A DNA stretch of 64,000 nucleotides from Pseudoxanthomonas beigongshangi (GTDB taxonomy: Bacteria > Pseudomonadota > Gammaproteobacteria > Xanthomonadales > Xanthomonadaceae), in the NCBI RefSeq assembly GCF_016820515.1, contig NZ_JADHDV010000010.1, positions 1 through 64,000 of the forward strand, given 5' to 3'. Below, in pieces: positions 38,770-51,019 of this stretch. The notes under the pieces were generated by a model that worked only from the letters and a program-made list of their open reading frames with translations, was not told the DNA's origin and made no database searches. A program made the position numbers and the translations under genes. How positions within the stretch are numbered: position 1 is the stretch's first letter; every line of letters starts with the position of its first letter.

Positions 38770-39375
38770 GTGTCCGAAGCGCGCGTCATTCCCGCCAACG
38801 AGTACCGCAGGACCCGCTGGAAGAACGGCCAGGGCTGGACGCGGGAAATCCTGCGCATGCCCGACAGCGACGATTGGACGTGGCGGCTGTCGATTGCGGA
38901 GATCGAACAGGACGCCGCGTTCTCGTCGTTTCCGGGCATCGATCGCGAGCTGATCCTCCTGCAGGGAAATGGGCTGCGGCTGGCGTTCGCGGAGGGCGAA
39001 CAGGTCGAACTGGAACCGCCGCACGGCCGGATTCGCTTCGCCGGGGAACGCGAGGTGACCGGCTACCTGCGGGACGGATTCACCCACGATTTCAACCTGA
39101 TGTGGAAGCGGGATGTCGTGGATGCCGAACTGCTGCACCGTCCGCTGGTCGGCTCGATGCTGTTCTTCGTGGATGCCGATACCACCTGGGCCATCCACCT
39201 GTTAGCCGGGCAGGCGGAATTCGAGGCGGCGAGTGGCTTGCCGCCGCTGTTTGCCGGAGACACCGCGCTACTGCCCGCAGGTCCGGAACGCCGCCGTTTC
39301 GCCCTGCAGGGCGGGGGAGAGCTGCTGGCCGCGCGCGTGTCGCCGGTGAAGCGGAGCGCCTTGACGGATCAGTAG
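38770..39375 (+). CDS. HutD/Ves family protein (GTG start)
   Basis: 201 aa cupin-like. Typical W-K-N-G-Q-G-x-T-R-E-I near residue 17, W-R-L-S-I-A-E-I-E, F-x-G-x-x-R and F-x-x-D-x-T-W blocks. HutD is tied to histidine use and Ves to cold response, but the function is not known. No hut genes are nearby. A TAGAAT box near 38734 may drive it. Its 3' end overlaps the convergent reductase gene by 7 bases. Confidence 0.87.
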   Translation: MSEARVIPANEYRRTRWKNGQGWTREILRMPDSDDWTWRLSIAEIEQDAAFSSFPGIDRELILLQGNGLRLAFAEGEQVELEPPHGRIRFAGEREVTGYLRDGFTHDFNLMWKRDVVDAELLHRPLVGSMLFFVDADTTWAIHLLAGQAEFEAASGLPPLFAGDTALLPAGPERRRFALQGGGELLAARVSPVKRSALTDQ

Positions 39376-41000
39376 ACGTCGCGGCGATAGCGGCCGGCCA
39401 GGCGGAGTTCCTCCAACCGCTCCGCGCCGAGCGCATCGTTCAGGGCGGCGTCCACGCCCGGGGCCATGCCCTCCAGGCTGCCGCAGACATAGATCACCGC
39501 GCCATCGTCCACCCAGCGCCGCAGTTCGTCGGCGACCTCGCGCAGGGCGTGCTGGACGTAGCGTCGCTCGGGCTGATCCCGCGAGAACGCCAAATCCAGG
39601 CGTTCCAGCGCGCCTCGCGCCTGCCAGTCCAGGATCTCGTCGCGATGGAAGAAATCGTGCGCCGCCTGGCGTTCGCCGAACACCAGCCAGTTGCGTTGCG
39701 CCTTCGCCGCCACCCGAGCCTTCAGGTGCGCGCGCAGGCCGGCGATGCCGGTACCGTTGCCGATCAGGATCATTGGACGATCGTTGCCGGGTGGATGGAA
39801 ATTGGCGTTCTCGCGGACGCGCAGGGCAATCGTCCCGCCGAGGGCCGCGTGATCGCACAGCCAGCCGCTGCCCAGCCCGGGTCGTCCATCCGGACGCCGC
39901 ATGCGCCGGACCAGCAATTGCAGGCTGCCATCGGCGGGAATCGAGGCGATGGAGTACTCGCGGTGCGGCAGGGCGGTGAGTTCCGCGATCTCGGTTTCGG
40001 GCGCGTGGCCGCGCAGCGTTTCCGGATCCGGCAGATGGACCTGGGCCAGGACGTCGGCAAGCGGTTGGCGCGTCCCCTGCCATTCGACCGGGCGTTGCGG
40101 ATCCCAGCCCACCGCCTGGACGAAGGCGCCCACGGCCGGCAGCGGATTGCGCGGACCGATTTCGGCGATGTCGCCGGCCTGCCATGCCGGAAACGCGCCG
40201 GTGGCCGGGCGCAGGGCAATGTGGAACGCCGCTTCGCCTTGGCTGCCGGGATTCAGCACGCGCCGATCGGCGAGAATCCAGTCCTCGTAGCGCGGCCGAT
40301 CCCAATCCGGCAGTTCGGCCACACCGCCCAATTGACCCAGGTGATGCTGCCAATGACGCAGGGCGCTTTCGTCGGCATTGTCGACGTCCACGCGGTCAAA
40401 CAGCGGTTGCGCGCCGTGCTGGCGCAACCAGTCATCGAGTTGATGACCGAAGGCGCAGAACTGCGCGTATTCGCGATCGCCCAGCGCCAGCACGGCATAG
40501 CGCAGGCCGTGCAGGGAAAGCGCCTGCGACATGATCCGGCGGACGAAGCCCAGCGCGTGATCGGGCGGATCGCCTTCGCCGGTGGTACTGACCACGAACA
40601 AAATCCGCCCCTGCGCGAGATCGCCGGCCTGCAGCGTATCGATTGCCTGCGCGCGCGCGGCGACGCCGGCGGTGATCAGGCTGTCGGTCGTGCGCGTGGC
40701 CAGCACGTGCGCGAAACCGGTCTGGCTGGCGTACACCACCCGCAACGCATCCTGCGAGGTATCGACGGCGGCGCCGCGATCCTGGCGACGGTGCCGCGCG
40801 GCCAGCCATGCCCATGCGCCGACGTAGGCCAGCAGCGCCGCGCCCGCGCCGAACCAGCGGCCGCTGCGCGGCGACGCCGGCCACCAGGTTTCGCCCTGCA
40901 GCAGCGCCATCGCCGCCACGATGGCGAGCAGGGCAAGCAGGACCGCGGCATTGCCCAGCCAGGCGAAGGAAACCGGCGAGGGAGAGGACTGCGCGCTCAT
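39369..41000 (-). CDS. Membrane-anchored flavodoxin/FNR oxidoreductase (sulfite reductase flavoprotein-like)
   Basis: 543 aa. Two membrane helices (about 11-33 and 48-68) precede a flavodoxin domain (about 85-225; A-S-Q-T-G and S-T-T-G-E-G-D-P-P bind FMN, A-L-G-D-R-E-Y closes the site) and a ferredoxin-NADP reductase domain (about 270-543; R-E-Y-S-I-A-S for FAD, G-N-G-T-G-I-A-G-L for NADPH, Y-V-C-G-S near the end). It should carry electrons from NADPH to a membrane acceptor. In relatives this module is fused to a PepSY membrane domain; here PepSY is a separate gene. ATG 41000 overlaps apbE by 4 bases. Confidence 0.9.
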   Translation of the reverse strand: MSAQSSPSPVSFAWLGNAAVLLALLAIVAAMALLQGETWWPASPRSGRWFGAGAALLAYVGAWAWLAARHRRQDRGAAVDTSQDALRVVYASQTGFAHVLATRTTDSLITAGVAARAQAIDTLQAGDLAQGRILFVVSTTGEGDPPDHALGFVRRIMSQALSLHGLRYAVLALGDREYAQFCAFGHQLDDWLRQHGAQPLFDRVDVDNADESALRHWQHHLGQLGGVAELPDWDRPRYEDWILADRRVLNPGSQGEAAFHIALRPATGAFPAWQAGDIAEIGPRNPLPAVGAFVQAVGWDPQRPVEWQGTRQPLADVLAQVHLPDPETLRGHAPETEIAELTALPHREYSIASIPADGSLQLLVRRMRRPDGRPGLGSGWLCDHAALGGTIALRVRENANFHPPGNDRPMILIGNGTGIAGLRAHLKARVAAKAQRNWLVFGERQAAHDFFHRDEILDWQARGALERLDLAFSRDQPERRYVQHALREVADELRRWVDDGAVIYVCGSLEGMAPGVDAALNDALGAERLEELRLAGRYRRDVY

Positions 41001-42001
41001 GCGGCGAGATGCGAGGCGAACCGGCTGCTGGCCCGTTCCGCCAGCGTGTCGCCCTCGCGGACGATGAAGCGCGCCGCGATCCCGCGCCGTTCGGCCAGCG
41101 CCAGTCCCGCGTCGGCTCCGAGCACGGTCAGTGCGGTGGCCCAGCCATCGGCTTCCATCGCGGTGGGTGCCAGCACGGTGACCGCCGCGCGCGCGCTGGA
41201 CACCGGCTTGCCGGTGCGCGGGTCGAGGGTATGCGTGTAGCGTTCGCCGGCCTGTTCGAACCAGTGCCAGCGATCGCCCGAGGTGGCGACCGCCCGTTCG
41301 TCGATGATCGCGATGCGTGGCTCCAGGCCGGCGGCTTCCTCCTCGTCCGGCGAGGATTCGATCAGCACCCGCCAGTGCTCGCCATCCGGCTTGCGGCCAT
41401 AACCGAAGAGTTCGCCGCCGACTTCGACCAGAGCGGCGGCGAAACCGCGCGCGCGCAGGGTTTCGGCCACCGCATCGACCGCATGGCCCTTGGCGATGGC
41501 CGACAGATCCAGTTGCACGCCACCGGGCTGCAGCAGGCGCCGGTGGTCGGTCTCCAGCACCAATCGCCGCCAGCCGACCTGTTGCCGGGTCGAATCGCGG
41601 CGGTCGTCGTCGGGAACCGTGCGGGATTGCGCATGGGCGCCGAACCCCCACAGTCCCACCAGCGGCCCGACCGTGGGATCGAAGGCGCCTTCACTGGCCT
41701 CGGCGATATCCAGCGCGCATCGCAGCACGGTGAAGAACGCGTCCGGAAGCACCTGCCAATGCCCGGCCTGCGCGCGGTTGAAACGGCTGATGTCCGATTC
41801 CGTTTCCCAGGTACTCATCTGCGCCACCACGCGATCCAGTTCGGCCTGGATCAGCGCGTGCAGCGCATGCAGATCCTCGCGTGGCGACGCGACCAGCCGG
41901 ACCGACCAGTTCGTGCCCATGGTTTCGCCATGCAGCGCGTGCAGCGCCATGTCCGGAGCGGGGAAGGACGGGGGAGACACGGAGGGAAAAGGGGAACTCA
42001 T
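40997..42001 (-). CDS. apbE: FAD:protein FMN transferase (ApbE)
   Basis: 334 aa. Attaches FMN from FAD to Ser/Thr of target proteins. Motifs: M-G-T-N-W-S-V, D-L-S-A-I-A-K-G-H-A-V-D, H-T-L-D-P-R-T-G-K-P-V and a C-terminal G-W-A-T-A-L region. Most ApbE proteins are periplasmic lipoproteins, but this one has no visible signal peptide or hydrophobic N-terminus and no in-frame upstream start was found. It lies between DUF4198 and the reductase in one operon, so the DUF2271 protein is the natural substrate candidate. Confidence 0.93.
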   Translation of the reverse strand: MSSPFPSVSPPSFPAPDMALHALHGETMGTNWSVRLVASPREDLHALHALIQAELDRVVAQMSTWETESDISRFNRAQAGHWQVLPDAFFTVLRCALDIAEASEGAFDPTVGPLVGLWGFGAHAQSRTVPDDDRRDSTRQQVGWRRLVLETDHRRLLQPGGVQLDLSAIAKGHAVDAVAETLRARGFAAALVEVGGELFGYGRKPDGEHWRVLIESSPDEEEAAGLEPRIAIIDERAVATSGDRWHWFEQAGERYTHTLDPRTGKPVSSARAAVTVLAPTAMEADGWATALTVLGADAGLALAERRGIAARFIVREGDTLAERASSRFASHLAA

Positions 42002-42008
42002 GACCCGC

Positions 42009-42030
42009 GGCGCGTCCCGGGGGACGCGCC
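42009..42030. other. GC-rich hairpin between DUF4198 and apbE
   Basis: Stem GGCGCGTCC / GGACGCGCC around CGGG fills most of the 40-base gap. There is no T tract, so it may shape message stability or apbE translation rather than terminate. Confidence 0.45.
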
Positions 42031-42041
42031 GGTCTTGGTGA

Positions 42042-42848
42042 TTACTGCGGCAGGACTTCGAGCGTGGCCACGTAGCTGAGGCGGCGCTGCTTGGCCTGCG
42101 GCAACGAGGTCTTGTCGTCCTGCGCGGTGGTTTCCAGCCAGTACATGCCGGCTTCCGGCCAGGTCACGCTGAACTCGCCGTTGGCATCGGTGGTGATCTT
42201 GATCTCGTCCTGCGCGTTGCGATAGCGGGTGCCGCCGCGGGTGATCTCGAACTCCAGGCCCGAGGCCGGCTTGCCGTCCTTGAGCATGCGGAACTTGGCC
42301 GGCTCGCCGGCGAACAGATCGTTCGGATGGGTGACCGGCACCAGTTCCAAGCCCTCGCCGCTGGTCTTGAGCGCGGTGTCGTTGGGCGAGCCGTTGGTCA
42401 CGAAGGTCTCGATGCGGCCGACCGACTGCGAAACCTGCAGGTTCTTGGCGTCCTTCGGCACTTCGGTGGCGAAGGTGGCGGGAGTGCCGCGCCAGCGCTT
42501 GGGCTTGCCGTTTTCTTCCCAGGTGCCGAACAGGCCGCTGTTGACCACCGCGATGCGGTAGGTGCCCTGCTGCTTGAGCTCGACGTCGAACACGGTGCGG
42601 TACTTGCCGGTGGCCAGGTTCTGCGCATCGACCTTGCTGCCATCCGGCGCGGTGATCGCCAGGCCCTCGGTGCGCAGCGGCACGTGGTTGAAGTAGAACA
42701 GGTCGTTGGACACCGCGGCGTCCACGGTGATCCACGGATTCTGGCCGGCGATCACCGTCTGCGACGGCTGCAGCCAGGCCTTGTGCGCGAACGCGCTCAG
42801 CGGCAGTGCGGACGCCAGCGCGATGGCGAGGGTCAGGGAACGCTTCAT
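42042..42848 (-). CDS. DUF4198 periplasmic protein
   Basis: 268 aa. Signal peptide ends at A-F-A; the mature protein opens H-K-A-W-L-Q-P, the usual DUF4198 start, and has an Ig-like C-terminal half with [20 protein letters not shown]. Family members appear next to nickel, cobalt or iron uptake genes and flavinylated proteins. Binding or scaffolding role inferred only. Confidence 0.88.
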
Positions 42849-42913
42849 CGGTTTCTCCAGCTTTTCGTCGGGTATGGGAAGGGGCGGATGCATCGGCATC
42901 CGCGCGGGATTGA

Positions 42914-43447
42914 TTACGGCTTGACGGTCAGGGTGACGGCGCCCAGTTCGCTGCTGCCCTGGGCCTTGCCGCTCTGCGCGGCGCCCTTGGCCGGCCAGGT
43001 GAAGGGAATCTTCAGCAGTTCGCGGCCGCCGACTTCGCGCGCGGCTTCCACCACCAGCGTGTACTGGCCCGGTGCCAGCTGCGCGAGTTGCGGCTGCTTG
43101 TCGGTGAACTTCAGCGCGTGCTTGCCGACCGGGCGGGTCGGGCCGGTGACGCCGTCCACCGGCACCTTCAGGGTGCGGCCGGACTTGCGCCACCACTGCC
43201 GCATGTCCGGCAGCCACTTGGTGCCGTGGCCTTCGGCGGTATCGCGCTGCTGGTACCAGACCGACAGGTTGGCGGCGACTTTCTGGTCGGCGCCCTCCAG
43301 CCAGATCGCGACGTAGGGCCGGTGGTACTCGGCGACGTTGAGCTGGGGCACTTCGACGTTGATGTTCAGTTCGCCGGCATACGCCGGAACGGTCAGCAAC
43401 CCGCTCAATGCGAACGTCAGGGTCAGGGACACGGTGGTCTTGGTCAT
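42914..43447 (-). CDS. DUF2271 periplasmic protein, candidate flavinylation target
   Basis: 177 aa. Sec signal peptide to A-Y-A (about residue 24). Residues Asp98-Gly-Val-Thr-Gly-Pro-Thr104 (43136-43156) resemble the ApbE target pattern D-x-x-S/T-G-A-T, in which FMN is joined to the last Thr; here position 6 is Pro instead of Ala. With apbE two genes downstream this is the most likely flavinylated carrier, exchanging electrons in the periplasm. It lies 19 bases after the PepSY gene. Confidence 0.88.
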
Positions 43448-43466
43448 GGGCGGGCTCGTCGAAGGA

Positions 43467-44108
43467 TCAGTGGATGAAGATCAGGGCCAGCAGCAGCGGC
43501 ACCACCAGGCCCAGGCCGACCATCGGCCAGGTCAGGCGGCGCTGGCGCGCGTGCAGTTGCAGCAGGAACAGGCCGGTGATGCAGAACACCAGGCAGGCGA
43601 TCGCGAAGATGTCCAGGAACCATCCCCACGCCGCGCCGGCGTTGCGGCCCTTGTGCAGGTCGTTGAAGTAGGACACCCAGCCGCGGTCGGTGCTTTCGTA
43701 TTCCACCGAGCCGGTTTCGCGATCGATGCTCAGCCAGGCGTCCGCGCCCGGGCGCGGCATCGAAAGATAGATTTCCACGTCCGACCACTCGGCCTGGCGG
43801 CGGCCGATGCCGACGGAGAACTCGTCGCCCAGCCAGGTGGCGACCGGAGCGGGCAGCGGCGCATTGCCTTCCTGGCGGCTTCCCAGCTTGGCCAGCAGCG
43901 CGGGCGGCAACTGCGCCTGCCGGTTGACCACCTCGGGCTTGGCCTCGATTTTCGAGGCGTGATTGAGGGTGATGCCGGTAGCCGCGAACAGCAGCATGCC
44001 GATGAGGCAGATCGCCGAACTGATCCAATGCCATTGGTGCAGCGTGCGCAGCCAGTAACCCCGGCGCTGCTGCTGGCTGGTGACGGATTGTGCGGGCGCT
44101 GGGCTCAA
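43467..44108 (-). CDS. PepSY-associated transmembrane protein
   Basis: 213 aa with three membrane helices (about 30-48, 160-184, 195-212) and a periplasmic PepSY-like domain between the first two. Histidines 24, 27 and 50 near helix 1 and 152 before helix 2 are placed as in heme-ligating PepSY_TM proteins. It could pass electrons from the cytosolic-side reductase to the periplasm. A Fur-box match lies just upstream of its start. Confidence 0.9.
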   Translation of the reverse strand: MSPAPAQSVTSQQQRRGYWLRTLHQWHWISSAICLIGMLLFAATGITLNHASKIEAKPEVVNRQAQLPPALLAKLGSRQEGNAPLPAPVATWLGDEFSVGIGRRQAEWSDVEIYLSMPRPGADAWLSIDRETGSVEYESTDRGWVSYFNDLHKGRNAGAAWGWFLDIFAIACLVFCITGLFLLQLHARQRRLTWPMVGLGLVVPLLLALIFIH

Positions 44109-44150
44109 GCGGGCGGGACGGGTCGAAGGAAGGGAGAATTAGACCACAAA

Positions 44151-44165
44151 TGAGAATGCCTCTCA
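44151..44165 (-). promoter_or_regulatory. Fur-box match upstream of the PepSY gene
   Basis: On the minus strand TGAGAGGCATTCTCA matches the 7-1-7 Fur consensus TGATAAT-N-ATTATCA at most arm positions and is itself TGAGA-N5-TCTCA. It lies 43 bases before the PepSY ATG and after the upstream receptor stop, suggesting a separate iron-regulated promoter for the reductase genes. Confidence 0.6.
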
Positions 44166-44211
44166 ATTGAGGTGGCCGGCCCGCCGATGGGCGGACCGTC
44201 CGGATACCGCG

Positions 44212-46638
44212 TCAGAAGCGCAGGTTCAGCGACACCCAGAAACTGCGGCGCTGTTCCTTCACTGCGTAGTCGTCCACGCAGCTGTACTCGCTGTCGCTGA
44301 TCAGCAGGCAGGATTGGGACACGAAATCCTTGTCGAACACGTTGTTGACCCGGGCATTGATGGTCAGCGCGTCGGTGGCCTTCCAGCTGCCGCCCAGGTG
44401 GAACACGGTGTAGTCCTCGTAATAGCGAACGTTGGAGACGGTCGCGCCGTTGACCGAGGTGACCACGGTGTCGCGATAGCGGTCGTAGCGACCCTCGCCG
44501 ATCAGCGACAGGCTGAGGGCGTCGCTGATCCGCCAGTTCAGGCTGGCGTTGGCCATGTGCCTGGCCGGGTTGCCGGCGATGGGCATGCCCTTGGCCGCGC
44601 CGCTGGTCTGCTCGGACTTGGTGTAGGTGTAGTTGCCGCGCAGCTCCAGGTTGTCCCGCAGGTCCACGTGCGCGGCCAGTTCGACGCCGCGGGTCTCGGC
44701 CTCGTCGATGTTCACGCTCTGGCTGAAAGTGCTGTAGCCCAGTTCGGCCCAGCCGGGACCGACATCCACACAGTAGCCGCTGCCGGCGGGCGCGACCTCG
44801 CAGTTCGGGAAGGTGCCGCCGCTGGCGATCTTGTCTTCGAACTTGTTGAAGAAGCCGGTGATGTTGAAGCCGAAGCGGTCGCCCTCGTAGTAGGCGGCCA
44901 GCTCGTAGTTGGTGCTGGTCTCGGGCTTCAGGTTCGGCGAACCGACCAGCGGCAGCACGCCCTGGCCGCCGAAGCCGGTCACGCCCGGGAACAGTTGATC
45001 CGGGCGCGGCGTCTTGTAGCCGGTACTGACGCCGCCCTTGACCGTCCAGGCGTCGCTGGCGTTCCAGACCAGGTAGGCGCGCGGACTGACATGGCTGCCG
45101 AACACGTTGTGATCGTCGTAGCGCACGCCCAGCGTGGCGGTCAGGGTGTCGGTGAACGACCAGTTGTCCTCGGCGAACACCGACCACATCCGGTGCTTCT
45201 GCTTCACGCCGTCGCGATAACCGCCGCCGTCCATGCCGAACACGCCGTCGGTCATGTCGGTGTCGTTGTACTGGCCACCGACGGTCAGCTTGTGGGCGCC
45301 GAAGGTCATGTCGAGCATCGTGTCCAGCACGTAGCCTTCCAGCTCCATCGTGCGCAGCGGGCGCGGCAGGAACGCGGACAGGCGCGCGCGCTCGGCGTCG
45401 TTGAGCACGCCCAGGTTGCCGTTGGCCATGTTGCAGCGGGCGGCCTGGCCGCGACGTGCGCAGACATCGTTCCACAGCGTCTGCAGGTTGGCGCGTTCTT
45501 CCAGCGTCAGCGGCAGCGAGCGGCCGAGGTTGTTGCTCGTGGCGTGGGTCAAGCTGGTCTGCCAGGTGCCGAAGTCATAGCGGCCCTGGTGGGTCAGTGA
45601 CAGCTGATCGCGCTCGTAGCGCTGCCATGCGGTATAGCCGACACGCGGCTGCACGACGCGACGGCTGACCGTGCCCGGACCATCGGGATTGGGAAGGGTG
45701 GCGTTGCCGCTGCGCCACAGGCTTTCCAGGCTGTCCAGGGTGCCGGTCTGGCCCTTGCGGTTGTCGTACTTCTGCCGCGAGATGTCGTAGTCCAGCCAGA
45801 AATCATTGTGCTCGTCGAGGCTGAAGTCCAGGCGCACGCCGGCGTTCCAGCGGGTGTTCGCGACCGCCTTGCCGCCGCCGCCGAAGCCCAGCGTGCGTTC
45901 CCACATCGAACCGTCCGGCAGCGGCAGCGCCGGCCACTCCGGGTTCGACTCGTCGGTGTCGTACCAGCTGCCGCGCACCGCCATGCCCAGCCGGTCCTTG
46001 ACCAGCGGACCACTGAGATAGAGATCGGTGGTGCGTGCGTCGCCGAACTGATCTTCCTGCTGGATCGTGAAGCCCTGGGTGATCGAGCCGCCCCATTCTT
46101 CCCTGTTGCGGCGGGTGATAATGTTGATCACGCCGCCCATCGCGTCGGAGCCGTACAGCGTGGACATCGGGCCGCGGACCACTTCGATGCGTTCGATCGC
46201 GTCCAGCGGCGGCACGTATGCAAACTGGCCGCCGCCGAAATTGTTCGGGTAGAGCTGGCCGACGTTGCTCTGGCGACGACCGTCGATCAGCACCAGGGTG
46301 TACTCGGAGGGCATGCCGCGCATGCTGACGGTGGCCGCACCATTCTTGTCGGTGGTTTCCATGCCCACATCGATGCCTTCCACATCGCGCAGTGCGTCGA
46401 TCAGGCTGGTATAGGGGCGCTGGCTGAGATCCTCGCGGGTGACCACGCTGATGCTGGCCGGCGCGTCGACGATTTTCTGCTCGAAGCCGGCCGCGGTGAC
46501 GACGACGGTGTCGAGGGTGTTGGGCCGGTCGGAACCGTCGGGCATCTGCTGGGCGACAACGGGTGCGGAAAGGGAAAGCAGCAGGCAAGCGGCGAGCCGG
46601 TTGCGGCGGGGGGAAAGCGGGAAGCGGGGCTGGGTCAT
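44212..46638 (-). CDS. TonB-dependent outer membrane receptor (iron chelate type)
   Basis: 808 aa. Signal peptide, then the TonB box T-L-D-T-V-V-V-T-A, a plug domain with G-I-D-V-G-x-E and I-E-R-I-E-V-V-R-G-P-M-S-T-L-Y-G-S-D-A-M-G-G-V-I-N-I-I-T-R-R, and a beta barrel ending W-V-S-L-N-L-R-F with a terminal Phe. The long plug signature is like FepA/CirA-type siderophore receptors; exact ligand unknown. It leads into the PepSY-ApbE-reductase genes 103 bases downstream. Confidence 0.94.
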   Translation of the reverse strand: MTQPRFPLSPRRNRLAACLLLSLSAPVVAQQMPDGSDRPNTLDTVVVTAAGFEQKIVDAPASISVVTREDLSQRPYTSLIDALRDVEGIDVGMETTDKNGAATVSMRGMPSEYTLVLIDGRRQSNVGQLYPNNFGGGQFAYVPPLDAIERIEVVRGPMSTLYGSDAMGGVINIITRRNREEWGGSITQGFTIQQEDQFGDARTTDLYLSGPLVKDRLGMAVRGSWYDTDESNPEWPALPLPDGSMWERTLGFGGGGKAVANTRWNAGVRLDFSLDEHNDFWLDYDISRQKYDNRKGQTGTLDSLESLWRSGNATLPNPDGPGTVSRRVVQPRVGYTAWQRYERDQLSLTHQGRYDFGTWQTSLTHATSNNLGRSLPLTLEERANLQTLWNDVCARRGQAARCNMANGNLGVLNDAERARLSAFLPRPLRTMELEGYVLDTMLDMTFGAHKLTVGGQYNDTDMTDGVFGMDGGGYRDGVKQKHRMWSVFAEDNWSFTDTLTATLGVRYDDHNVFGSHVSPRAYLVWNASDAWTVKGGVSTGYKTPRPDQLFPGVTGFGGQGVLPLVGSPNLKPETSTNYELAAYYEGDRFGFNITGFFNKFEDKIASGGTFPNCEVAPAGSGYCVDVGPGWAELGYSTFSQSVNIDEAETRGVELAAHVDLRDNLELRGNYTYTKSEQTSGAAKGMPIAGNPARHMANASLNWRISDALSLSLIGEGRYDRYRDTVVTSVNGATVSNVRYYEDYTVFHLGGSWKATDALTINARVNNVFDKDFVSQSCLLISDSEYSCVDDYAVKEQRRSFWVSLNLRF

Positions 46639-46760: not shown

Positions 46761-47282
46761 TCAGGCGATCTGGAGCAGCGAAGCCAGCACGGGAGGCGCC
46801 TGGCCGCGATGGCGCTGGCATGGCGGCGCCGGCTTGCTCGGCACGCGACCGGAAGTGCGCAGGCATGCGCCGCCGGAAGGCGGTTGCCTGGACAAGGAGA
46901 ATGCCAGGACGGGGAGGAGTTCCCTCGGCGTCGCCACCGGTTCCGGTTCGGCGTGCTGGGAAACCGGCTGCAGGGTGACGCGCCGTTTCTTGGCCGGCTG
47001 ATCGTCATGGCGCCCCGCATCGGGCGCTCCATCTTCCGGCGCCTGCTGGAGCATTCCGACGGGACTGGCGCGGTTGTCCCAGTGGCCGAAACCATGCGGA
47101 CGCTGCCCGGCCATGGCGCCGAAGTGCAGGGTGGACAGCAACAGGCATACGGAGGCCAGCACGGCCAGCCACGCCGCACGCGGACGCACCTCGCGGCGCG
47201 ACCGGCGGGATTGGACAGCCTGGCGGATCGCCTGGAACAGAAACTTACCCCTGCATGGATGGCCGCCCCAAGGGGACGGCAA
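46761..47282 (-). CDS. Candidate small membrane protein under a Fur box (TTG start)
   Basis: 173 aa, not recognised. One hydrophobic segment (about residues 36-58, W-L-A-V-L-A-S-V-C-L-L-L) and a polar C-terminal half with two Cys and His-rich stretches. The only upstream start is a TTG with no clear ribosome site, which lowers confidence. A near-consensus Fur box 16 bases before it and the same-strand receptor 122 bases after it support expression under iron limitation. DUF2946-like proteins beside receptors are a loose comparison only. Confidence 0.45.
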   Translation of the reverse strand: MPSPWGGHPCRGKFLFQAIRQAVQSRRSRREVRPRAAWLAVLASVCLLLSTLHFGAMAGQRPHGFGHWDNRASPVGMLQQAPEDGAPDAGRHDDQPAKKRRVTLQPVSQHAEPEPVATPRELLPVLAFSLSRQPPSGGACLRTSGRVPSKPAPPCQRHRGQAPPVLASLLQIA

Positions 47283-47297
47283 GCGCAGGGATTTTAA

Positions 47298-47312
47298 TGA
47301 GAACCATTATCA
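47298..47312 (-). promoter_or_regulatory. Fur box upstream of the small ORF/receptor genes
   Basis: TGAGAACCATTATCA matches TGATAAT-N-ATTATCA at 12 of 14 arm positions. It sits 16-30 bases before the TTG of the 173-aa ORF and about 660 bases before the receptor start. A second half-site TGAGAGGCAT follows at 47321. Confidence 0.8.
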
Positions 47313-47338
47313 AATGCAAATGAGAGGCATCTTGCCGC

Positions 47339-48028
47339 TCATGTTTCGCCCCAGCGCCGCAGCAGGTTGTGGTACACGCCGGTCAACCGGACCACCGCGG
47401 CGTTGTCCGCGCCGGTCTGCCGCAATGTCTCCAGCGAAGTATCCATCTCGAACAGTAGGCGCCGGCAGGCGTCGTCGCGCACCATGCTCTGCACCCAGAA
47501 GAACGAGGCCAGGCGCGCGCCACGCGTCACCGGCTGGACCTTGTGCAGGCTGCTGGACGGATACAGCACCATGTCGCCGGCGGGCAGCTTCACTTCGTGC
47601 TCGCCATAGGTGTCGCTGACGATCAACTCGCCGCCGTCGTATTCGCCGGGCTCGCACAGGAACAGCGTGCAGGACACGTCGGAGCGCACCGCCTGGCTGC
47701 GGCCATCCGGGGTCCGGGTGAGCATCACCGAACCGTCGATGTGGAAGCCGTATTCACCGCCGCCCTGGTAGCGGTTGAAACGCGGTGGTACGACGTGGAG
47801 CGGCAGCGCCGCGGCGAAGTACAGGGGATTGCGTTCCAGCGCGGCCAGAATCCGCTGGCCCAGTTGTTCGCGCAGCGGCGAGGCGTCCGGCAACTGCTCG
47901 TTGCGCTTGACCTGCGCGCCCTGGACGCCGACGGTCTCGCGGCCGTCGGTCCAGTCGGCCTGGTCCAGCGCCTGCCGCATCGCCATGACCTCCTGTGGGG
48001 CGAGCACCTGGGGAATATGCAGCAGCAT
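47339..48028 (-). CDS. piuC: Fe(II)/2-oxoglutarate-dependent dioxygenase, PiuC/YbiX family
   Basis: 229 aa PKHD-type hydroxylase. The iron facial triad is visible as H-I-D in Y-G-F-H-I-D-G-S and a later His in S-S-L-H-K-V; the 2-oxoglutarate Arg follows in V-T-R-G-A-R. In Pseudomonas and E. coli this gene accompanies the catecholate receptor PiuA/Fiu. Here it lies 54 bases downstream of the second receptor, in the same order. Confidence 0.93.
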
Positions 48029-48082: not shown

Positions 48083-50410
48083 TCAGAACCGCAGGTTCAG
48101 GCTCAGCAGCACCGAACGCGGCGCACCCGGCGTGTAACGGTAGCCGCTCTTGTTGATCGCCGCCACGTAGTCCTTGTCGAACAGGTTGTAGGCGTTCAAG
48201 CGCAGATCCAGGTTCGGGCTGAAGGCATAACTGACAACCGCGTCCCACACCGTGTACGACTTGACGAAGTTCGGCGTGCCCACGGCACCGTCGGTGCCGC
48301 GCTTCATTTCGCCGGAGTAACGCACGCCACCGCCGACGGTCAGGCCGAAGGGGAGTTCGTAGGTGGTCCAGGCGGTGAAGGCGCTGTCCGGGGTGTAGCC
48401 CAGATCGCGGGTCTTGTCGTTCGCCACGACCGGGCCATCCTTCACGGTGGCGTCCATCGCGGTGTAGCCGGCGGACACGGACCAGTCGTCGGTAAGCTTG
48501 CCAACCGCCGAAACCTCCACGCCGCGCACGCGCTTCTCGCCGCCCTGGAAGGTCACCCCGTTCTCAGTGATCACTTCGTTGCTCACGTCAGTCTGAAACA
48601 CCGCCAGGGTCAGCAGCAAATCGTCACCCAGCAGGTTCCACTTGCTGCCGACCTCGAAGGTCTTGGCTTTCTGCGGGTCGTATTTGGGATTGTTGGCGCT
48701 GTTGTCCGCGTTGCTCAGTTCCAGCGCGGTACCGCCCGGAGGCTGCTGCGAAAGCGCGTAGTTGGCATACACGCTGGCGACGTTGCCCACCTTGTAGACC
48801 GCACCGAGTTTCCAGTTGACCAGGGTATCGGAGGCATCCCGATCCACGCCCGGCACGATGGTGCCGGTGGGCAGGCTGCCGCAGACGGGACCGCCGCGAC
48901 CGCCGCAGGCGACCAGGCTGCTGAAGTCGGTCTTGTAGTGATCCAGGCGGATGCCGGCGGTCAGCAGGAAGGCTTCGTTGAACTTCAGGGTATCGAAGGC
49001 GTACAGCGACGACGTGGTGATCTTGCCCTTGCTATGCGCACCATTGCGGCCCCAGCGCAGGCCGCTGACGTCAGGGTCGGGGTTGTACAGATTGGCCGCC
49101 GGCCAGGCGGTCCCCGGGATCGTGGCGACGCCCCAGCTTTCCAGTTCCTCGCGCGCGAACTCCAGTCCGGTGCTGAGGTTGTGCTGCACGCGGCCGGTCG
49201 AGAAGTCGGCGCGCAGGTTCAGCTGGTTGGTGGCGATGGTGTATTCCTGATCCTTGAAGGTTGGCAGGCTGCGGTTGACCGTCCAGCCATAAGGATTGTT
49301 GATGTCGGGGATGGTCAGCGTGGGCGTGGTGCCGGTGGCGGACAGCATGAATGCCGTCAGCATGTAGTCCTGTTCGTTCTTGCCCCAACGTGCGGTATTG
49401 GTCAGCTTCAGCGTGTCGGAGAAGTCGTGCTCGAAGCGGAACGTGGCCATTTGCGCGGTCACGTCGTCGTGATCGAAGCGCGTGCCGTAGAAGTTCTCGC
49501 TGTCCACGCGCGGCGCCAACGCGATCTGCGGACGGGCAGGGTCCGGCGAACTGTAGCCCGGCAGGCCGATGGTCGGCACGCCGCCGTCCGGCACGTTGTC
49601 CTGCTTCACGTACAGCAGGTTGAGGAAGTAACGGGTATCAGAGCCCAGGCCGAACGCCAGCGACGGCGCCACGCCCCAGCGCTTGTTGTTGATCAGATCG
49701 CGGCCGGGCACGTCGCTGTCCTGCGCCATCACGTTGAGGCGGAACGCCGTGCCGGGGATGCCGAGCGACTGGTTCCAGTCGGCGGTGACGCGCTTCTGGT
49801 CGTCACTGCCGATCGAGACGGTCGCGCTGATCGCGTCCTTCCGCGTGGCCTGCTTGCTGACCATGTTGATTGCGCCGGTCGGTGCGCTGCGGCCGTTGTC
49901 GGTGCCGGCCGGCCCCTTCTCGACTTCGACCTGTTCGACATTGAACACGTCGCGCGAGATCGAACCCAGGTCGCGCACGCCGTCGACGAAGATGCTGCTG
50001 GAACTGTCGAAGCCGCGCATGAACAAGGTGTCGCCGGTGGTGGTGTTGCCGTTTTCACCGACGAAGAAGGTGCCCACGCCCGGGCTGTTGCGCAGCGCCT
50101 CGGTCAGGGTGGTCGCGCCCTGCTGGTTGAACAGATCGTCGGTGATGATCTGGATGGTCTGCGGGGTGTCCTGCAGCGACTGGGTGAACTTGGGCGAGGC
50201 CAGCTTGTCCGCCTTGTATTCGCCGACCGAGGTGCCTTCGACGTGCACCTCCGGCAGGGTGGTCGGATCCGGTTTGGGCGCGTTGTCGGAGGCGACCTGG
50301 GCGGCGGCGGGGACGGCCAGCGCCAGGCTGGTCAGCAGGGTGGCGGTGGTCAGGCCGTTCGGGGAACGGGACGCGGGAGTGGCGTGCTTGCGCGACTTGA
50401 TCGGGTTCAT
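48083..50410 (-). CDS. TonB-dependent siderophore receptor (Fiu/PiuA type)
   Basis: 775 aa from ATG 50410. Signal peptide to A-A-A-Q, TonB box near T-L-P-E-V-H-V, plug domain with V-E-V-E-K-G-P-A-G-T-D-N-G-R-S-A-P-T-G-A-type stretch, C-terminal barrel ending V-L-L-S-L-N-L-R-F. The G-x-G-T-F-F-V-G-E-N-G-N-T block and the piuC neighbour point to a monomeric or catecholate siderophore ligand. An earlier in-frame start exists but lacks a signal peptide. Confidence 0.94.
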   Translation of the reverse strand: MNPIKSRKHATPASRSPNGLTTATLLTSLALAVPAAAQVASDNAPKPDPTTLPEVHVEGTSVGEYKADKLASPKFTQSLQDTPQTIQIITDDLFNQQGATTLTEALRNSPGVGTFFVGENGNTTTGDTLFMRGFDSSSSIFVDGVRDLGSISRDVFNVEQVEVEKGPAGTDNGRSAPTGAINMVSKQATRKDAISATVSIGSDDQKRVTADWNQSLGIPGTAFRLNVMAQDSDVPGRDLINNKRWGVAPSLAFGLGSDTRYFLNLLYVKQDNVPDGGVPTIGLPGYSSPDPARPQIALAPRVDSENFYGTRFDHDDVTAQMATFRFEHDFSDTLKLTNTARWGKNEQDYMLTAFMLSATGTTPTLTIPDINNPYGWTVNRSLPTFKDQEYTIATNQLNLRADFSTGRVQHNLSTGLEFAREELESWGVATIPGTAWPAANLYNPDPDVSGLRWGRNGAHSKGKITTSSLYAFDTLKFNEAFLLTAGIRLDHYKTDFSSLVACGGRGGPVCGSLPTGTIVPGVDRDASDTLVNWKLGAVYKVGNVASVYANYALSQQPPGGTALELSNADNSANNPKYDPQKAKTFEVGSKWNLLGDDLLLTLAVFQTDVSNEVITENGVTFQGGEKRVRGVEVSAVGKLTDDWSVSAGYTAMDATVKDGPVVANDKTRDLGYTPDSAFTAWTTYELPFGLTVGGGVRYSGEMKRGTDGAVGTPNFVKSYTVWDAVVSYAFSPNLDLRLNAYNLFDKDYVAAINKSGYRYTPGAPRSVLLSLNLRF

Positions 50411-50506
50411 GGGTGTCTTGGCGGTTGCGGAAGGGAATCCCCGTGGCGACGGGCGATGGGGAAGCGGGGGCGCTGGCGGCCCGGGCATCCGGATCGCCAG
50501 TGCGAT

Positions 50507-50920
50507 TCAGGCGCGCGGGGGCGCGTGGCCGTGCGGCAGACGGCAGGCGTCGGACCGGAACCGGACATTGCCGGAACGGAGGGACGCGCAACGTGCGGGC
50601 TGGAAGCCGGGGCGGTCAGCGGGGGCGGGGCCGCTCGCAGGGTCGAACTCGCCTTCGGGTGAAGGTTCGACGGCGGCGATCGGGTCCACGGACGGGAGTT
50701 GCCAGCCTGTGGCGGGACTTCTCTCTTCGGCGTCCCGGGTGTTTGCCTCCGCTGCCGGAGTCCCCTCGGACAACGCGGCCGCCACCACGGTCGGGCCGGT
50801 GACGGCCGCGACGGATGCCGACGCGACCGGAAGCAGCCACACCAACGACCACAACAGTCCCAGCAGCGCCCAGAAGAGGGCGCTGCGACGTTCGTCACGG
50901 GGGCGGGTCGGAAGGGGCAA
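50507..50920 (-). CDS. Candidate small membrane protein under a Fur box (TTG start)
   Basis: 137 aa, not recognised. One hydrophobic segment (about residues 15-45, A-L-F-W-A-L-L-G-L-L-W) then a Pro/Glu-rich tail with two Cys. The start is a TTG without a clear ribosome site; an in-frame stop lies 6 codons upstream. Its layout mirrors the 173-aa ORF: Fur box, small one-helix protein, TonB receptor. Confidence 0.45.
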   Translation of the reverse strand: MPLPTRPRDERRSALFWALLGLLWSLVWLLPVASASVAAVTGPTVVAAALSEGTPAAEANTRDAEERSPATGWQLPSVDPIAAVEPSPEGEFDPASGPAPADRPGFQPARCASLRSGNVRFRSDACRLPHGHAPPRA

Positions 50921-50964
50921 GGGGAGCGGAGCGGGTCAGCCGGATAACGAATTTATAATCTTAA

Positions 50965-50979
50965 TGATAATTGTTCTCT
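50965..50979 (-). promoter_or_regulatory. Fur box upstream of the second receptor unit
   Basis: TGATAATTGTTCTCT matches the 7-1-7 consensus at 11 of 14 arm positions within an AT-rich patch (50949-50982) that stands out from the GC-rich surroundings. It lies 45 bases before the 137-aa ORF start. Confidence 0.75.
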
Positions 50980-51019
50980 TTCGCAAAGGCGCCTCGCCGA
51001 ATGGCGGTGCGGAAGAAAC

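Follow-up and report, generated by a model that had tools for sequence, protein, structure and literature searches.

Gene clusters in which a PepSY-like membrane protein accompanies flavinylated carriers were described by Meheust et al. 2021 (PMC8238504), who recorded 3220 PepSY clusters, 231 of them with a TonB receptor, and proved by a Thr-to-Ala change that DUF2271 is a substrate of the flavin transferase ApbE; the passages of that paper considered here also name DUF4198 as a frequent partner and propose iron reduction as the function. In Caulobacter crescentus, the genes CC_3059-3063 (CCNA_03155-03159) are Fur-bound and induced by iron loss, and insertions in them lower fitness in ethylenediaminetetraacetic acid (EDTA), according to the relevant sections of two studies (PMC3751524, PMC12004947). 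A related stretch, SMLT_RS05570 to SMLT_RS05535, appears in the Fur regulon of Stenotrophomonas maltophilia, in a fragment of a RegPrecise-derived table (PMC6240677). Here we describe a locus of this kind in Pseudoxanthomonas beigongshangi, located within the first 64,000 nucleotides of contig NZ_JADHDV010000010.1 (assembly GCF_016820515.1; this whole stretch is hereafter the window). With high probability, as judged from its sequence, the locus is a module for assimilatory ferric reduction, probably under Fur control, and belongs to the PepSY-like flavinylation systems already known.

The gene identities, gene order, Fur-like boxes, motifs and predicted signal peptides were read directly from the DNA. 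All six genes given in the preliminary description lie on one strand (-) and belong to the families named there, on which the positions in the open reading frame (ORF) list and the cut-offs of the Pfam profile scan agree:

44212..46638, - strand, TonB-dependent receptor, CirA/CfrA-like, 808 amino acids (PF07715 and PF00593 above cut-off)
44149..44167, no strand assigned, Fur-like box before the PepSY operon, in the gap between receptor and PepSY (15/18)
43467..44108, - strand, PepSY_TM_like_2 membrane protein, 213 amino acids, TTG start assumed (PF16357 289.6 bits; PF03929 41.8 bits, cut-off 28.8)
42914..43447, - strand, DUF2271 secreted flavin-carrier candidate, 177 amino acids (PF10029 176.9 bits; signal peptide by a home-made rule)
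43136..43156, - strand, ApbE-like acceptor motif D98-G-V-T-G-P-T104 within DUF2271 (from aligned motif rows)
42042..42848, - strand, DUF4198 secreted protein, 268 amino acids (PF10670; mature N-terminal His22, codon 42783-42785)
40997..42001, - strand, ApbE flavin transferase without recognisable signal peptide, 334 amino acids (PF02424 281.8 bits)
39369..41000, - strand, flavodoxin/FNR diflavin reductase with a hydrophobic stretch at its N-terminus, 543 amino acids (PF00258 and PF00175 above cut-off)

The start of the reductase gene overlaps the stop of ApbE (40997..41000), and the NCBIfam models listed as nearest to the receptor are of ligand-gated channel, CirA and CfrA types, none reaching its cut-off. 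PepSY-like flavinylation loci are defined by a PF16357 or PF03929 protein clustered around ApbE/DUF2271, of which one or more must have a signal peptide, and the window shows this arrangement.

Three Fur-like boxes, starting at 50963, 47296 and 44149, were the highest-scoring sites of the 64 kb with the second of two consensus strings, for which 20 shuffles gave 0.15 score-14 sites per 64 kb and none above 14. With the first string, the sites at 47293 and 50960 were ranked top and the region of 44149 reached just 11/19; both strings were our own, and the second was relaxed after this low score and thus was not blind. The two other boxes and the genes around them are:

46761..47282, - strand, small ORF preceding the receptor, without Pfam or NCBIfam match
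47296..47314, no strand assigned, Fur-like box before the small ORF and receptor (15/18)
47339..48028, - strand, PiuC/YbiX-type Fe(II) dioxygenase (NCBIfam NF003975 347.7 bits, cut-off 180)
48083..50488, - strand, Fiu-type catecholate siderophore receptor (NCBIfam Fiu 1089.2 bits, cut-off 686)
50963..50981, no strand assigned, Fur-like box upstream of the Fiu-type receptor unit, top match of the window (16/18)

Since the boxes stand before three separate units, the six-gene run, previously taken as one, divides into the end of one iron unit and a five-gene operon. Judged by genes and boxes, the core is the operon of PepSY, DUF2271, DUF4198, ApbE and reductase starting at box 44149, the small ORF 46761-47282 and the CirA-like receptor form one unit behind box 47296, and PiuC and the Fiu-like receptor are part of the same neighbourhood, further upstream of the CirA-like receptor. 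Box 50963 is situated about 475 bases ahead of the Fiu-type receptor, and the interval may hold a small ORF. Among relatives, a Fur-like site scoring at least 12 was present upstream of PepSY in 85/126, against 1/126 of the internal control stretches. Control of the PepSY operon by Fur and iron, as proposed in the preliminary description, is probable, with the Fur-like boxes found here and the Caulobacter Fur and iron data in its support.

The relatives were not a random sample. They comprised a family draw, the best 80 loci of a PepSY pattern scan (the named loci) and two dense draws; 85 additional loci were of Caulobacterales and Comamonadaceae, and six loci were common to the family and named sets, the duplicates being left out. 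The comparison of motif and ApbE dropped 16 loci without a readable motif or ApbE (10 family, 6 named), and for the scoring of proline rows described below five rows without motif or ApbE and five with a cut or broken ApbE were set aside. The order PepSY-DUF2271-DUF4198-ApbE-reductase on one strand was kept in 51/61 family and 75/80 named loci, with PiuC upstream in 41/61 and 34/80, respectively; DUF2271 was present in 58/119 family genomes. In the PepSY comparison and in the tree, the named rows closest to the window were those of Pseudoxanthomonas. The locus was also seen in an entry titled Bacillus subtilis (L097, JAHREJ010000005.1), with a PepSY 78% identical to that of the window; the tree places it with rows of Stenotrophomonas, and it is probably assembly contamination.

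In the module as we envisage it, ferric chelates would reach the periplasm through the CirA-like and Fiu-like receptors. In the cytosol, the diflavin reductase would move electrons of reduced nicotinamide adenine dinucleotide phosphate (NADPH) to flavin adenine dinucleotide (FAD) and flavin mononucleotide (FMN), hemes of PepSY would carry them across the inner membrane, and FMN held covalently on Thr104 of the exported DUF2271 would hand them to the ferric chelate. The freed Fe(II) might then enter by FeoB after being held or passed on by DUF4198, whose mature N-terminal histidine would provide the metal site, with ApbE as the maker of the flavin carrier. We infer from sequence that PepSY binds hemes, that electrons flow in this direction and that DUF2271 is flavinylated, and likewise infer the ligand and the metal of DUF4198. 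For PepSY, the previously noted heme-type histidines held up in 17 aligned rows, where H27, H50, H152 and H213 are invariant and H186 nearly so, and its fair AlphaFold2 model (predicted local distance difference test score 83.8) has long helices at 9-51, 158-189 and 191-212; the protein may bind heme. The assignment of the reductase was likewise sustained by its alignment with the diflavin enzymes CysJ and P450-reductase, and the signal peptides earlier seen on DUF2271 and DUF4198 pass the home-made rule. His22 of DUF4198, preceded directly by Ala in 130/130 loci, was found in 131/131 rows, which gives the mature protein the N-terminal histidine of the metal-site family. The best FeoB_N match of the genome (1.9e-55) lies in a 701-codon frame.

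DUF2271, matched once in the genome, is the sole carrier of an ApbE-like motif among eight locus proteins scanned. Its acceptor Thr was kept in 215/215 rows with an aligned motif, those with proline included, and the leading Asp in 210/216 rows (absent in L054, L055, L058, L061 and L224; no motif was read in L157); in the alignment subset, for which 124/130 loci matched the pattern used, D98 and T104 stand in 125/125 rows, window included. Proline occupies the position of the motif alanine in 105/206 scored rows. The tree requires a minimum of 13 changes in this state, which recurs in many lineages, and holds a TGPT/SGPT clade of 70 rows, mainly Xanthomonadaceae, with a value of 98 in the Shimodaira-Hasegawa-like approximate likelihood ratio test; alanine is retained in other Xanthomonadaceae. 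The published acceptor motif seems to tolerate proline as a variant, and the DUF2271 of the window would be flavinylated at Thr104. For DUF2271, a search of PDB sequences returned nothing, and a fair structural model gave no PDB fold match at E 0.001. A second DUF2271 type was observed in L054, L055, L058 and L061, where it shares one long frame of 519-678 codons with ApbE, has the motif ARPT without S/T-G and adjoins DUF4198 and a receptor.

Several results weigh against the ferric-reduction reading. The motif DGVTGPT fails D-x-x-[S/T]-G-A-[S/T], with D, T, G and T kept and A replaced by P, so that TGPT is outside the published [S/T]GA[S/T]. For PepSY, the profile search of PDB sequences returned no solved relative and the model had no PDB fold match at E 0.001, FoxB not being among the 50 matches listed. 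A Fur-like box upstream of PepSY was not found in 41/126 relatives, including the same-genus locus L033. The receptor is variable: a related CirA-type receptor stands directly upstream in only 14/61 family and 23/80 named loci and is, on these counts, not a fixed part of the system, so that of the six-gene order expected in relatives the five-gene part was mostly kept and the receptor was upstream in a minority. The solved DUF4198 prefers nickel, and the metal of the window protein may not be iron. Finally, ApbE lacks both signal peptide and lipobox by our home-made rules and in this respect differs from the periplasmic type, a point on which the preliminary description was silent and which does not fit a simple model of periplasmic ApbE.

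The PF02424 protein has the Ser-His-Asp active site with S241, H257 and D285 near-invariant, and there is no start codon in its frame from 42001 up to the upstream stop at 42166. The N-terminal hydrophobicity of ApbE is 0.58, versus 1.72 for DUF2271 and 2.05 for DUF4198. Leaders were called by a signal-peptide rule and by a purely hydrophobic rule. By the former, DUF2271 was exported in 206/215 and DUF4198 in 212/213 loci, and ApbE had a leader in 30/211 (171 without, 10 not scorable); by the latter, 181 of the 202 scored tree rows were leaderless and 21 had a leader. Exported DUF2271 and leaderless ApbE occur together in 166/211 loci (signal-peptide rule). In the draft genome itself (68 contigs), the single ApbE match is the ApbE of the locus. 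A further 45 family genomes carry DUF2271 and a single ApbE, which is leaderless in 34, has a leader in 8 and is unassigned in 3 (hydrophobic rule), and 15/20 named-locus genomes had a single ApbE match. A common N-terminal stretch of RVLIP/RVLVP type, with no clear signal peptide, was observed in the ApbE of L113, L137, L145 and L159 (Stenotrophobium, Herbaspirillum, Sphingosinicella and Caulobacter).

The simplest fit to a leaderless ApbE beside an exported DUF2271 would be loading before export: ApbE, using cytosolic FAD, would place FMN on the DUF2271 precursor ahead of its passage through Sec. This is a sub-mechanism of the ferric-reduction module, differing in the site of loading, and we give it slightly less than an even chance. 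In its favour, DUF2271 and DUF4198 of the window score as exported by the signal-peptide rule whereas its ApbE does not, and the same pairing recurs in most loci and in single-ApbE genomes, as counted above. Leader-stripped DUF2271 and its ApbE moreover react upon co-expression in E. coli (PMC8238504), and a tag of seven residues suffices for ApbE, as stated in part of a review in the Journal of Biological Chemistry (JBC review). Against it stands the nature of the leader rules: they are home-made and do not come from SignalP, and for 13 rows, including L159 (Caulobacter segnis), they give conflicting calls. As only 5/130 DUF2271 starts are twin-arginine-like, Sec is the likely export route. 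A 2011 paper is said to have described the passage of bulky adducts through SecYEG. Extended to most of the sampled PepSY-DUF2271 loci, the proposal that leaderless ApbE loads the carrier in the cytosol and Sec exports it with FMN attached is held still more tentatively. In the sections of the JBC review considered, cytosolic ApbE is reported only with cytosolic targets, and ApbE expressed in the cytosol failed to support knock-out growth without thiamine; the literature passages covered, supplements and figures being outside the scope, held no discussion of leaderless ApbE with exported DUF2271. If loading does precede export, flavin would be shipped as part of the polypeptide with no need of periplasmic FAD, and biogenesis would run the opposite way to that in the model of periplasmic ApbE. 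The usual view that extracytosolic flavinylation depends on extracytosolic ApbE and FAD would then not apply to many of these loci, and they would be misassigned in screens that demand a signal peptide of ApbE itself.

Two other explanations appear unlikely, to a similar degree. Some unrecognised route could take the leaderless ApbE to the periplasm, where it would act as in other systems, in keeping with the characterised enzymes, most of which are secreted lipoproteins acting outside (JBC review, in part), and with the 30/211 related ApbE that score with a leader; in most of the window clade, however, the ApbE N-termini have no hydrophobic stretch in common. Alternatively, ApbE could modify a cytosolic protein, as with the fumarate reductase of Klebsiella, the TGPT-bearing DUF2271 being no longer flavinylated. 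A cytosolic ApbE with a cytosolic substrate is indeed known (JBC review, in part) and the DUF2271 motif departs from the consensus, but the complete conservation of the acceptor Thr, proline motifs included, counts against this reading. An ApbE-like acceptor motif was, moreover, not found in the window reductase and occurred in 2/123 related reductases, and FMN_bind and NqrB/RnfD gave 0 matches each in the genome, in which no search was made for DUF3570 or, genome-wide, for cytosolic targets of other kinds.

As to the metal, a DUF4198 crystal structure has nickel at the N-terminal-histidine site, the Ideonella protein binds Ni with a dissociation constant of 18 nM, and the same paper, in the part considered, takes neighbouring TonB receptors as nickel-linked (PMC12537917); that the module of the window handles nickel or another metal instead of iron is nonetheless very improbable in view of the Fur-like boxes, the Fiu-type and PiuC neighbours and the Caulobacter iron and EDTA data (PMC3751524, PMC12004947). 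The DUF4198 profile found no full-length solved relative, the best partial match (1.1e-05) being 9mhk, titled phosphoribosylglycinamide formyltransferase.

Two candidate regularities were rejected. A pairing of the acceptor proline with a change from aromatic to Ala/Gly at ApbE position 190 was consistent across the three lineages compared first and failed on the 85 new loci, in which many proline rows of Caulobacterales and Comamonadaceae keep F, Y or H at this position. The second linked the proline motif to leaderless ApbE. Proline rows numbered 99 leaderless and 2 with leader, alanine rows 81 and 19 (hydrophobicity rule); by the other rule the figures were 95 and 5 (8 unscored) and 75 and 25 (6 unscored). 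Independent pairs on the tree were not significant, the leader state having 7 changes beside those of proline; the leader-bearing proline rows include L054 and L061, in which ApbE and DUF2271 are fused and the motif is without S/T-G.

Around the module, the small ORFs 46761-47282 and 50507-50920 (-) have one hydrophobic segment each and are similar by eye; each precedes a receptor and stands downstream of a Fur-like box. Elsewhere in the genome, six further near-full-length PepSY_TM matches were seen on contigs C4, C6, C23, C66 and C67 and are candidates for FoxB-like siderophore reductases. PiuB is reportedly grouped with FoxB and HiuB among PepSY siderophore reductases.

Compared with described systems, the window shares with the PepSY-like clusters a PF16357 PepSY protein, DUF2271, DUF4198, ApbE and an NAD-binding reductase domain; the TonB receptor occurs there in a subset only, and neither a leaderless ApbE nor the TGPT motif is mentioned in the passages of that paper (PMC8238504). 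The five genes and their order in Caulobacter CC_3059-3063 are identical to those of the window operon, whereas no receptor accompanies them and the Fiu/PiuC-like pair cciT/cciO (CCNA_00028/00027) is located elsewhere (PMC3751524, PMC12004947). By names and tags, S. maltophilia has the same small ORF, FhuA-type receptor, piuC, small ORF (SMLT_RS05550, the positional counterpart of 46761-47282), colicin-I-type receptor, pepSY and periplasmic protein as the window; unlike there, a sel1 gene lies between receptor and piuC, and DUF4198, ApbE and reductase are not listed in the fragment of the table (PMC6240677). IsDUF4198 resembles the window protein in the histidine straight after the signal peptide; the solved protein prefers nickel (PMC12537917, in part). 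HiuB, and FoxB as cited with it in the part considered (PMC13001220), are PepSY_TM proteins with heme-type histidines adjoining a TonB receptor, as in the window, where PepSY differs in being short, with three long helices, and in standing beside a separate reductase and flavin carrier. The published PepSY-like system, the Caulobacter counterpart and the solved DUF4198 together place the window locus in a known kind. The chain from NADPH through a carrier to the ferric chelate, as drawn in the preliminary description, matches the published PepSY-like proposal and is well supported but not new; the locus extends an iron-reduction system already described to one further genome, and its possible importance lies in the mismatch of compartments between its ApbE and the exported DUF2271.

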